Origin: an uncultured Bacteroidota bacterium | Lineage (GTDB): Bacteria; Bacteroidota; Bacteroidia; Bacteroidales; WCHB1-69 | DNA: 34,766 nucleotides | Direction of reading: 5' to 3' | Assembly: GCA_902774205.1 (NCBI GenBank) | Contig: CACYHL010000030.1 | Coordinates: 1 to 34,766, forward strand | In this document: positions 4,965 through 8,388 of the stretch, piece after piece | Numbering within the stretch: the first letter of the stretch is position 1 | Layout of the letters: the number at the start of each line of letters is the position of its first letter | Program-made: the position numbers and the translations under genes | Notes under the pieces: generated by a model | Database searches by the model: none | Told to the model about the DNA's origin: nothing | Seen by the model: only the letters and a program-made list of their open reading frames with translations

Positions 4965-5987
4965 CTATTTCACCACAAACTTCGCCGTTTCAAAGTGTTT
5001 TTCTCCCTTGATTTGCAAGATATAGAGTCCCTTTTCCAATCCAGCAACGGGAATTGTTCCATGGGAGGAGCCCGCTGCCACAGTTTGACCCAAGACATTT
5101 AAGATGGAATAATCCACTGTTTCGCAAGGAAGGTTCTTCATATAGAGGCGGTCGGACACAGGGTTGGGATAAACCTCTAACGGCTGCTGACGTGAAGATT
5201 CGTGGAGAGCCGAAGGTTTAGTCGCAGGAATGATATTCAAAATAATACCCTCAATCTTCGTCATACCATAATAAAAATCTGGATCTGGAATGTCGTACCA
5301 GTCATCTAAGGAATTTCCATAGCCAAAGTTGAGATGGAACTTGCCATCACTTTCCCTATAGCCATCAACCACAAGATTGTGACCGACTGTTCCCTCGGGA
5401 TTTTCAACGGCAAGATGGGCGGGATAACCGGCTTGCAGATTGGAAATCAAGGTGGCATACATTACGGAATCGGGTTCCAGAAACAGCTGGCAGTCTGTAA
5501 AGCCAAACCTTTGGTACGCCGCAAACGCCTGATCCACAGCAAAGGTGCCTGAACCTTCCGAAGTATATACCTGTGTGCAGGCTGTGCCGCACGCGAACAC
5601 CACGGCAGCCGCCAACAAGTCAGGGAGTTCCTCCCCACGCTGGAAAGTGGCATCAACGGAATCCAACAACCCGTTCAACTCAGGAAATGACGGAAACTGC
5701 AACATTTCCCAATCGTCATCAATATTATAATTGCGACCGGCGTAATGGTGGGCATAGTCGTCATTGTCAGAAAAACGTGTGTTTTGTGTTGTTCGCAAAT
5801 AATTGAGAATCTGCCCCATGGCAATAGCGGGACATCCGGCAGCACTATATGCGTTGCCATTCACCGGGTCACGTGGACAAAGCTGATTGTAGGGGTAACT
5901 CTGTGACCACCGAGTGGCAAGGAGCGGTTCTTGCGCAAAGCTGCTCAAAGCGCAAAACAATAACAACACGGGAAAAAATCTTGACAT
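4965..5987 (-). CDS. C10 (streptopain-like) cysteine protease with type IX secretion sorting domain
   Basis: A 340-residue exported protein. The signal peptide is MSRFFPVLLLFCALSSFAQ. A papain-like C10 peptidase domain follows at once: the nucleophile is Cys52 in AAGCPAIAMGQ and the His is His203 in VGHNLVVDGY, followed by the usual FHLNFGYG and DDWYDIP strands. From about residue 270 there is a type A T9SS C-terminal domain (EVYPNPVSDRLYM, then NVLGQTVAAG and GLYILQIKG, ending KFVVK). The protein should cross the outer membrane through the type IX system and be attached or released. The long inhibitory propeptide seen in streptopain is absent, because the catalytic domain begins right after the signal peptide. 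A -7 box lies at 6013-6020. Confidence 0.9.
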   Translation of the reverse strand: MSRFFPVLLLFCALSSFAQEPLLATRWSQSYPYNQLCPRDPVNGNAYSAAGCPAIAMGQILNYLRTTQNTRFSDNDDYAHHYAGRNYNIDDDWEMLQFPSFPELNGLLDSVDATFQRGEELPDLLAAAVVFACGTACTQVYTSEGSGTFAVDQAFAAYQRFGFTDCQLFLEPDSVMYATLISNLQAGYPAHLAVENPEGTVGHNLVVDGYRESDGKFHLNFGYGNSLDDWYDIPDPDFYYGMTKIEGIILNIIPATKPSALHESSRQQPLEVYPNPVSDRLYMKNLPCETVDYSILNVLGQTVAAGSSHGTIPVAGLEKGLYILQIKGEKHFETAKFVVK

Positions 5988-6020: not shown

Positions 6021-6102
6021 TGAAATTTTTTGAAATTATCCCTTTTGCTTCTGTAAACTAACGAAGTGATTTTGTTATCATATTTTATACGTTTTTCTCT
6101 TT

Positions 6103-6413
6103 CGCGGCGAGTTGCCGTATAGTTTCAAAACAACTGTTCCCTACGCCGCGAGTGTGTCGTAGGTTGCTGTCACCTCCTCATACCGCACTCCTTGCAGTCG
6201 TTTGTATGAGTTTACGAAAATAATGTCGCTTCGCGACAAAAAACAATGATAAGATGAATTTGTATATGAAGCAGACCTCGGAGAGGTCATACTTTAATAA
6301 ACCCAGATAAGCGCAGTTTTACTGCAGCGCAATCTGAGGAGACGGAACGAACTATAATAATCTCCGCGGTGCGCTGTAAACGTTCCCAAGAGCCAAACTG
6401 CTGCTCACCGCGG
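6103..6413. repeat. Hairpin-dense intergenic element of unknown nature
   Basis: Inside the 734-base gap between the protease and ATPase genes lie at least six perfect or near-perfect inverted repeats: CGCGGCG 6103-6109 with CGCCGCG 6144-6150; CCTACG 6140-6145 with CGTAGG 6158-6163; CTCATAC 6177-6183 with GTATGAG 6204-6210; TGTCGC 6224-6229 with GCGACA 6233-6238; GACCTC 6274-6279 with GAGGTC 6283-6288; a stem from CAGAT (6304) through GCGCAGT to ATCTG (6336); and CCGCGGTG 6364-6371 with CACCGCGG 6406-6413. The first two compete for the same bases. No convincing protein frame spans it. It could be an interspersed Bacteroidales intergenic repeat (MITE or REP-like) or a structured RNA. The left (5988-6102) and right (6414-6648) flanks are plain AT-rich sequence. 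Confidence 0.55.
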
Positions 6414-6651
6414 AATGGGGAACATTGCTAATAACAAAATTCTATACGAAATTAGAAGATGACAACAAGACTAAAAGGGAAAACGAAAATTGAACTGTCC
6501 ATTTTCCATATTGATTATCATTATCTTACAATCTTAATTTTAGTGACTTGAATGGTCGGTTGAATGGTTTTCCATCGGAACCAGCACCGATCAAATCGTT
6601 CGCAAAAATACAATATTCCACGTTTCCGATATACGCAAAAGAATTTCAACC

Positions 6652-6684
6652 TTGATTTTCTAATGCAGAATTTTTGTATTTTTG
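6652..6684 (+). promoter_or_regulatory. Promoter of the DUF4143-type ATPase gene
   Basis: TTG at 6652-6654 and TATTTTTG at 6677-6684 are separated by 22 bases, close to the Bacteroidota consensus. It lies 38 bases before the ATG at 6722, so that ATG is preferred over the upstream TTG at 6674. Confidence 0.5.
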
Positions 6685-6721
6685 CAAACTAAAACTGTGT
6701 ATATACACAAAAATATTTTTT

Positions 6722-7900
6722 ATGGAATTCAAGAGAGATCGGCGTGTGGGAAAGTCCTATTTGCTATTCAACCTGTTCAAACGCCACCTTGTTGAAAGCG
6801 GTGTCGCCGCCAATCATATCATTGAAATCCCATTGGACGATTTCGCTTACAGTGAATATCGCAATGCGGAAAAGATGTACCACTTTGTCAAAGAAGCATC
6901 CGCCAGTGATAAGGAAATGTACTATGTTTTCATTGACGAGGTGCAAATGCTTGACCGATTCGTGGATGTGCTGAACGGCTTTCTGCACATTGATAATCTT
7001 GATGTGTATGTTACAGGTAGCAACGCCAAATTCTTATCCTCCGACATTGTGACCGAGTTTAGAGGTCGTGGAGTGCAAGTCAATGTCAACCCTCTCACTT
7101 TTAAGGAGATTTTCACGGAGAAAGGAGGCGAAGTGACCTCCCTTTGGAAAGATTATATGTACTATGGCGGCATTCCTTTGGTTGTGACCGAACCTGATGC
7201 TTCCATTAAGAGGGAAATGCTGCACGCCTTGGTGAAAGAAACTTATTTGACTGATATCATAGAACGAAACAAGGTGAAGAATGACACGGAACTGTCAGAC
7301 TTGTTCAATATTTTGGCATCCAACATTGGAACGCTGACGAATCCGACCAAACTTTCCAACACTTTCAAAAGCGAGAAGAATGTCTCCGTTAACTCCTGGA
7401 CAATCAAGCAGTATATTGATTACTTTGAGGATTCTTTCCTGCTAAAGAAAACCATCCGCTATGACATTAAGGGAAAGAAGTATATAAACACTCCCTGCAA
7501 ATACTACTTTTCAGATATCGGGCTGCGCAATTCCGCCTTGGATTTCAGGCAGGTAGAACCCACCCACGTAATGGAGAACATAATATTCAACCACCTACTT
7601 CATTTCGGATACAGCGTGGATGTCGGAGTAATGGAACGCTACTCAAAAGACAAGAACGGCAAAACCGTGAGGAATACGCTTGAAGTGGATTTTGTCTGCA
7701 ACAAGGACAACGACCGACTCTATGTTCAAAGTGCCTTTTCCATTCCCGATGCAGAAAAACTCGAACAAGAGCAACGCTCCTTATACCTGATAGACGACTC
7801 TTTCAAAAAGATGATTCTGACCAATGACACCATTCCAGCGCACCGACTGAACAATGGAGTCTATGTGATGAATGTGTGTGATTACCTGTTGGAAGATTAG
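6722..7900 (+). CDS. AAA-type ATPase with DUF4143 C-terminus, 5' eroded
   Basis: A 392-residue product of the large prokaryotic AAA_14/DUF4143 ATPase family common in Bacteroidota accessory DNA. Visible parts are RRVGKSYLLF (end of Walker A, residues 7-16), Walker B YYVFIDEVQML (Asp-Glu near 72-73), the sensor segment VTGSNAKFLSSDI, and the C-terminal part beginning near TYLTDIIERN, with an endonuclease-like VDFVC near the end. The family normally has about 20-25 residues before Walker A, and the P-loop begins with Gly (GIRRVGKS). Here the frame opens with MEFKRDRRVGKS, so the first strand and the first P-loop Gly are gone. The 3' end is intact. This looks like replacement of the 5' end at about 6735, and ATP binding is probably impaired. 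The molecular role of the family is not firmly known. Confidence 0.75.
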   Translation: MEFKRDRRVGKSYLLFNLFKRHLVESGVAANHIIEIPLDDFAYSEYRNAEKMYHFVKEASASDKEMYYVFIDEVQMLDRFVDVLNGFLHIDNLDVYVTGSNAKFLSSDIVTEFRGRGVQVNVNPLTFKEIFTEKGGEVTSLWKDYMYYGGIPLVVTEPDASIKREMLHALVKETYLTDIIERNKVKNDTELSDLFNILASNIGTLTNPTKLSNTFKSEKNVSVNSWTIKQYIDYFEDSFLLKKTIRYDIKGKKYINTPCKYYFSDIGLRNSALDFRQVEPTHVMENIIFNHLLHFGYSVDVGVMERYSKDKNGKTVRNTLEVDFVCNKDNDRLYVQSAFSIPDAEKLEQEQRSLYLIDDSFKKMILTNDTIPAHRLNNGVYVMNVCDYLLED

Positions 7901-8049: not shown

Positions 8050-8122
<73 letters not shown>

Positions 8123-8136
8123 GTAATTTGGTCAAG

Positions 8137-8209
8137 AGCGGAAGACGGGTCTCGAACCCGCTACCTGCAGCTTGGAAGGCTGCCGCTCTGCCAAATGAGC
8201 TACTTCCGC
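8137..8209 (-). tRNA. tRNA-Gly (TCC)
   Basis: A 73-base cloverleaf on the minus strand. The anticodon arm is GCAGC-CTTCCAA-GCTGC, giving anticodon TCC, which reads GGA/GGG. The acceptor stem is GCGGAAG as in the neighbouring tRNA-Gly(GCC). The discriminator is U. CCA is not encoded. Confidence 0.95.
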
Positions 8210-8226
8210 AATGAAGAAGAATAGCG

Positions 8227-8308
8227 TGGGAGGGGGAGGATTCGAACCTCCGAAGGCTTAGCCAACAGATTTACAGTCTGCCCCATTTGACCGCTCTGGT
8301 ACCCTCCC
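8227..8308 (-). tRNA. tRNA-Tyr (GTA)
   Basis: An 82-base minus-strand gene with a long variable arm, as expected for bacterial tRNA-Tyr. The anticodon loop is CTGTAAA, giving GTA. The acceptor GGGAGGG pairs with CCCTCCC, and the discriminator is A. The T arm is GGAGG-TTCGAAT-CCTCC. Confidence 0.95.
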
Positions 8309-8315
8309 GAGGGAG

Positions 8316-8388
8316 AGCCGATGGACGGACTCGAACCGCCGACCGGCTGATTACAAATCAGCTGCTCTACCAACTGAGCTACATCGGC
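8316..8388 (-). tRNA. tRNA-Thr (TGT)
   Basis: A 73-base cloverleaf on the minus strand. The anticodon arm is GCTGA-TTTGTAA-TCAGC, giving TGT, which reads ACA. The acceptor GCCGATG pairs with CATCGGC. It is first in the operon Thr-Tyr-Gly-Gly, a grouping seen in other Bacteroidales. Confidence 0.95.

Follow-up and report, generated by a model that had tools for sequence, protein, structure and literature searches.

The question raised by this locus is why a gap that holds no gene should be filled with hairpins. The window, by which we mean the whole stretch of 34,766 nucleotides that was analysed, belongs to a genome that we call G000, and in it the gap separates a C10 peptidase gene from a divergent AAA_14/DUF4143 ATPase gene, with the 5' ends of both facing the gap (Table 1). 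A preliminary description had called this gap gene-free, which was upheld, and had suspected that the ATPase is truncated; the first 10 profile positions are indeed absent and the gene starts at or just before the nucleotide-binding motif. Four clustered tRNA genes lie on the minus strand at 8050-8388 of the window.

Table 1. Features of the hairpin-rich gap and its neighbours, with positions counted in the window
Feature	Position	Strand	Sequence or extent	Basis or remark
C10 peptidase gene	4965-5987	-		PF01640, Por secretion tail
AAA_14/DUF4143 ATPase gene	6674-7900	+		
Whole element, decayed MITE copy	6032..6487	+	about 456 bp	ends common to own-genome copies
Left terminal inverted repeat (TIR), decayed	6032..6054	+	GAAATTATCCCTTTTGCTTCTGT; own-genome consensus GGAATTATCCCTTTTAGTCTTGT	
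Hairpin a	6102-6109/6144-6151	+	TCGCGGCG / CGCCGCGA, 8/8 paired	kept in own-genome copies, G014 and G078
Body matched by covariance model R1	6169..6346	+		
Hairpin b	6177-6183/6204-6210	+	CTCATAC / GTATGAG, 7/7 paired; constant core GCACTCCTTNCAGTCG	inverted-repeat search, covariation
Long-range linker helix enclosing c and d	6211..6301 (about 6212-6221 with 6291-6301)	+		79% Watson-Crick, compensatory types
Hairpin c	6224-6238	+	TGTCGC-TTC-GCGACA	covariation
Hairpin d	6274-6288	+	GACCTC-GGA-GAGGTC	inverted counterpart of c; covariation
Hairpin e	6302-6308/6332-6339	+	[stem]AAGCG..CGCA[stem'], inner GCGC pair	inverted counterpart of b; covariation; signature hairpin adjacent to Y1 genes
Hairpin f	6363-6374/6403-6414	+	CCGCGGTGCGC / GCTCACCGCGG, 92% complementary	apparent inverted counterpart of a; half-against-half alignment
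Right TIR, decayed	6465..6487	-		

Hairpins of the gap and the family to which they belong

The inverted repeats of the preliminary description were all present in their places, and the competition that it had noticed between CGCGGCG/CGCCGCG and CCTACG/CGTAGG is real, as hairpin a and the stem that pairs CCTACG (6140-6145) with CGTAGG (6158-6163) both need positions 6144-6145. Of 100 dinucleotide shuffles, 99 folded less well than the 346 bases from 6095 to 6440 on the plus strand (z -3.3) and 98 did so on the minus strand (z -2.3), which bears out the claim of more structure than chance would give.

The preliminary description had likened some motifs to an interspersed Bacteroidales repeat, and had said that the lack of a second copy would count against its reading of the gap. 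Such copies are present in the own genome and in related genomes, and the likeness holds. When G000 was searched with 6090-6440 as query, 20 matches reached E<=0.001, the query itself included, and with a longer query 28 reached E<=0.1. The limits of 6103-6413 that had been assigned were too narrow, and upon extension of the query and alignment of 17 own-genome stretches the ends were set at 6032 and 6487. This unit is a member of a repeat family which is short, non-coding and repeated in the genome, as MITEs are.

A covariance model of hairpins b to e, R1, was trained only on dispersed copies, seven from G000 and one from G014, with the window copy as one of these eight rows. In the window R1 scored 175 bits on the plus strand and also 57.6 bits on the minus strand, because the body is self-similar and palindromic. 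Relatives were detected with R1 in 56 of the 104 genomes of the same family and in 6 of its 17 genera, and there was no blastn match at E<=1e-5 in the phage and plasmid collections. The hairpin plan is kept in the elements of G014 (393-463 bp), which have different end repeats (GGTAACTATATACCTGATGGCAC and variants), and in those of genus g8 (627-728 bp in G078), the ends of which are also GGTAACTATATACCTGATGGCAC and variants. In G025, bipartite units are present without these TIRs.

Some individual copies deserve mention in their own right. Two copies in genus g12, L117 (G120, contig C73) and L118 (G114, contig C5), scored 167 and 165 bits and are thus nearly as close to R1 as the G000 copies, for which either horizontal transfer or contamination would account. 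In G000, the copy at L020 (contig C108, from about 1002 downward) is truncated; the loop of its hairpin b is apparently inverted between the stem arms and is followed by unrelated sequence. In another, at L012 (contig C23, about 1122-1393), the c-d region is tandemly duplicated inside the copy.

The body is a covarying nested palindrome

The body is built of two bipartite two-hairpin units, b-c and d-e, which are mutually inverted, with a and f outside. The order is b, with a variable outer stem and a constant core, then a linker and c, followed by d, a complementary linker and e. These are dispersed extragenic palindromes in inverted pairs, as in REPs and REPINs; on inspection, none of the window hairpins had the GTAG/GTGG (or CGTC) foot.

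Covariation was examined in 60 of 109 aligned rows (the best strand at each place), aligned from 57 chosen loci of which some flank Y1 genes. Watson-Crick pairing in these 60 copies was 91% in the outer stem of b, 79% in the linker helix, 94% in c, 96% in d and 96% in the outer stem of e, and the best slid controls reached 61%, 43%, 38%, 36% and 52%, respectively; these values are biased toward pairing, since the copies were aligned to fit the model. Compensatory changes, each type in at least two copies, were found in 30 of the 45 modelled pairs, which is the base-pair covariation that the preliminary description had asked for. In its modelled form the inner helix of e paired at 65%, and its slid control at up to 91%. 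Its register is therefore wrong in part of the alignment, and it was dropped as evidence. Alignment of one half of the body against the other gave z values of 2.8 to 10.5 over 8 copies; the window copy, L013, L162 and L136 fell below the best shuffle and L107 equalled it. This supports a build by inverted duplication in some copies only.

Significant folding and strong covariation are also what a structured regulatory or trans-acting RNA that has been copied around the genome would show. Against this, no Rfam family was matched at its gathering score, and at E<=10 there were only two matches, both at chance level. When the inner helices are left out, cells with G-U and cells with A-C are about equally many (69 and 71, rounded from fractions) and neither strand is therefore favoured as RNA, and with the inner helices included the totals of 159 and 90 lean to the plus strand but are not decisive. 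An RNA would also leave the target duplications and the placement at Y1 genes that are described below unexplained, and we regard it as very unlikely. A regulatory RNA, an origin and an attachment site had all been offered as options for the gap, and none of them found support in the analysis. The other option, a MITE or REP-like element, is the one that is supported, by the further copies, by relatives with TIRs and 8-bp target duplications and by the hairpin body beside Y1 genes.

Terminal inverted repeats, target duplications and the search for a transposase

The TIRs that identify the family as MITE-like are decayed in the window copy, where left and right agree at 14 of 23 positions. In G000 the consensus GGAATTATCCCTTTTAGTCTTGT occurred 19 times with no more than three mismatches, and its reversed control did not occur at all. 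Pairs of TIRs without the hairpin body were also found, 91 bp long in G000 (contig C32) and enclosing other DNA in G001 (107, 376 and 577 bp), and the TIR system is therefore separable from the body. The longest of these, at L073 (G001, contig C190, 1501-2077), has 577 bp of unrelated DNA with a possible ORF between two good TIRs.

Target duplications of 8 bp were found in the relatives in G014 and genus g8, unlike in the body copies of G000. Both ends were available in 9 of 12 copies in G014, where 51 of 72 positions were equal (shuffle p 0.002) and 3 duplications had no mismatch. In g8 both ends were recognisable at 9 of 19 loci, where one duplication was perfect and 57 of 72 positions were equal, a value that was reached in none of 20,000 shuffles. 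In G000 no duplication was seen at any of the six body copies examined, namely the window copy and five others, and the 91-bp TIR element is bordered by AAAATCTT at either end, offset by 1 nt. As the duplications occur in relatives of other genera, it may be inferred that the TIR-bounded package was also moved by a DDE-type transposase. The window element, with its mismatched ends and no visible duplication, is a decayed and probably inert copy.

A parent transposase with the same TIR was not found. Pattern searches of G000, G001, G025, G014, G033 and G012, and of G014 with its own TIR pattern, did not recover any autonomous element that shares the TIRs; the matches were either solo ends or TIRs that belong to the elements, and five solo-end or relative loci that were listed with ORFs had no recognisable transposase. 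ISL3 was present in none of 14 genomes and IS1595 in 2 of 14, G000 and G014 being negative. The IS1595-like elements of g8 were considered as the engine and rejected. Their end repeats, such as CAATAGATACCTGTTGGCAG, have ATACCTGTTGGCA in common with the MITE ends of G014, yet unlike the MITEs they do not start with GG, and because duplications were absent at their inspected ends we do not claim them as the engine; a connection of these ends to the TIR of G000 was not found.

These IS1595-like ORFs, of about 280 aa, are at L158, L159, L160, L201-L206 and L224-L227 (g8 genomes G070, G076, G077, G071, G023 and G065). Their match to PF12762 starts only at about profile position 45, so that the region of the first catalytic Asp is seemingly missing. 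Inverted repeats that contain the core ATACCTGTTGGC flank several of them, with no target duplications to be seen, and the ORFs may encode transposases that have been domesticated or disabled.

Hairpin units flank one group of Y1 transposase genes

Of 21 genomes examined, 17 have genes with a PF01797 domain, and nearly all of the Y1 proteins have the motif Y---Q--HH, the exceptions being fragments and the divergent proteins at L231 and L247. The proteins were divided by eye into groups A and B. At E<=1, R1 matched at 8 of 11 group A loci, at several of them on both sides of the gene, compared to none of 14 group B loci, and group B genes were rejected as partner on this count. The model-free signature [stem]AAGCG..CGCA[stem'], which is the form of hairpin e, was present within 600 bp of group A genes at 1.01 per kb (5 of 11 loci). 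The density was 0.06 per kb for group B, where 1 of 14 loci had it, and 41 background loci gave 0.05 per kb; five of the 30 Y1 loci (L231, L247, L257, L259 and L260) were left out of both groups in this count, and one of these five, L259, had an R1 match. G000 itself has one group A gene (L252, contig C42), which lies between two oppositely oriented signatures, and one group B gene (L239, contig C20), which does not have the signature.

A contig scan with the group A alignment gave 80 loci from records named as Bacteroidales, Bacteroidia and Bacteroidetes bacteria, one Paludibacteraceae and one 'bacterium F082', and the samples named in the record titles were largely ruminant gut. After 141 R1 match rows were merged by hand into 95 distinct places, 83 of these fell in the 77,218 bases that lie no more than 500 bp from the gene and 12 in the 290,925 bases farther away, so that the density near the gene is 26 times that farther out. 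R1 matched within 500 bp at 52 of the 80 loci, at 22 of them on both sides, and no such match was seen at the other 28. Signature hairpins within 500 bp were found at 31 of the 80 loci, a few of the hairpins looking like chance matches, and their placement is inverted: upstream 24 were on the plus and 7 on the minus strand, and downstream 27 were on the minus and 7 on the plus strand. As R1 was trained on dispersed copies only, this placement test is independent of the training. In a set of 30 loci, the genomes of which overlap those of the 80, R1 matched at E<=0.05 anywhere in the locus at 21. At L287, L317 and L356 the full b-c...d-e body adjoins the Y1 gene, and at L317 and L356 the outer hairpins start with GTAG, the REP tag.

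Copies that flank a Y1 HUH gene are a property of REPs and REPINs, and here this holds for the architecture; clear cognate copies in the same genome were seen in G028 only, where the Y1 flank matched dispersed copies over 123 bp at 77% (E 9e-22). The similarity was weak or absent in several other genomes, including G000 and G033, the comparison being made with those dispersed copies that were fetched, a subset in each genome. The present Y1 gene of G000 is therefore only a candidate as the server of the window element.

Since the Y1 genes in the same family are flanked by such units in inverted placement, the body most likely spread as single-stranded hairpin DNA. The alternative is a plain MITE moved by a DDE-type transposase, in which the hairpins are passive cargo and the likeness to the Y1 flanks comes from landings of the MITE beside Y1 genes. 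The TIRs, the 8-bp duplications and the TIR pairs without body are all in keeping with it, but the body is kept with compensatory changes while the TIRs vary among genera, the units concentrate within 500 bp of group A genes in inverted placement and do not do so at group B, and G025 has bipartite units without these TIRs. A plain MITE is thus in our judgement unlikely. Least probable of all is a bidirectional terminator or chromosome-organising repeat that is kept by selection on the host and not by mobility. The hairpins are intergenic, and REPs elsewhere are reported to act in these ways (Quentin et al. 2018, PMC6006769), but the window copy sits between divergent 5' ends, and the clustering at Y1 genes and the target duplications would be left unexplained.

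The explanation that we prefer, and consider likely, is that the window element is a non-autonomous, decayed mobile element with a REPIN/BIME-like body that was moved as single-stranded hairpin DNA by a Y1 transposase and was packaged in TIRs. The body, b-c and d-e with a and f outside, would be the nested palindrome of a REPIN or BIME. A Y1 transposase of the group A type (HUH, IS200-like) would bind and cut the single-stranded hairpins, and the body would have spread, or would still spread, in this way. In part of the family, the window lineage included, the body lies inside TIRs and a putative DDE-type transposase would move the package as well.

Comparison with known systems

The likeness to REP/REPIN (BIME) elements and their RAYT (TnpA_REP) proteins lies in dispersed intergenic imperfect palindromes, in inverted pairs, around a single-copy Y1 HUH gene, and in the GTAG foot on the outer hairpins of L317 and L356; GTAG/CGTC repeats are treated in PMC3733652. 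Unlike REPs, for which a unit size of 21-65 nt is given in PMC6006769, the unit here is bipartite and the whole body is about 170-470 bp; unlike canonical REPs, the window copy has no GTAG foot and its lineage is enclosed in TIRs. The Y1 protein, unlike RAYT, does not have the class 2 motif and has that of subclass 1.2. Two Y1 proteins scored 30 and 30.5 bits with the RAYT model NF047646 of NCBIfam, below its cut-off of 80, and 61.5 and 63.2 bits with the IS200 model NF033573, above its cut-off of 55.

In the subclass listing of Quentin et al. (2018, PMC6006769), TnpA_Y1 subclass 1.2 has Y---Q--HH, comes mostly from Cyanobacteria and Bacteroidetes and as a rule does not have typical terminal structures, with a 'no' for REP; for subclass 2.6 in Bacteroidetes the flanking structures are given as atypical. 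Group A has the motif and the length of about 148 aa of subclass 1.2, an assignment made from the motif by eye and by pattern and not from a tree. It also agrees with that listing in its about 149 aa, DH[IV]H in most proteins, occurrence in Bacteroidetes and low copy, and differs from it by its structured inverted flanks and by a W motif of GW..E in place of the listed WQ. The same account gives subclass 1.2 neither the IS properties of subclass 1.1 nor an association with REPs. The arrangement at group A genes is that of REP/REPIN and RAYT with a Y1 type that is listed as REP-free, and our data hint at a partnership between repeat and transposase that would be new for this type.

Among MITEs the nearest comparison is with MITE464/PgRS, MITE239 and BrickBuilt of Porphyromonas gingivalis, which, as set out in PMC4596501, are also non-coding, dispersed, TIR-bounded, of similar size class and from Bacteroidales. 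They are described there with TIRs in common with IS5-family elements, 4-bp duplications for BrickBuilt and tandem repeats for BrickBuilt and PgRS; the present family differs from them in its TIRs, in the 8 bp of its duplications and in a body that is a nested palindrome. No description of it was found among titles and abstracts of the open-licence literature on REP/RAYT, Bacteroidales repeats and MITEs.

A further step, which we put forward tentatively and with some doubt, is that a REPIN-like system served by a subclass 1.2-type Y1 was also captured by a DDE-type MITE, so that two unrelated mobilisation chemistries meet in one family. If this is true, single-strand HUH hairpin processing and transposition with TIRs and 8-bp duplications would both be used by one element family. 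The flanking hairpins are a concrete candidate substrate for the subclass 1.2 Y1 proteins of uncultured gut Bacteroidales, the covarying model is a tool for finding such hairpins elsewhere, and some of the intergenic hairpins that stand unannotated in these genomes would be explained.
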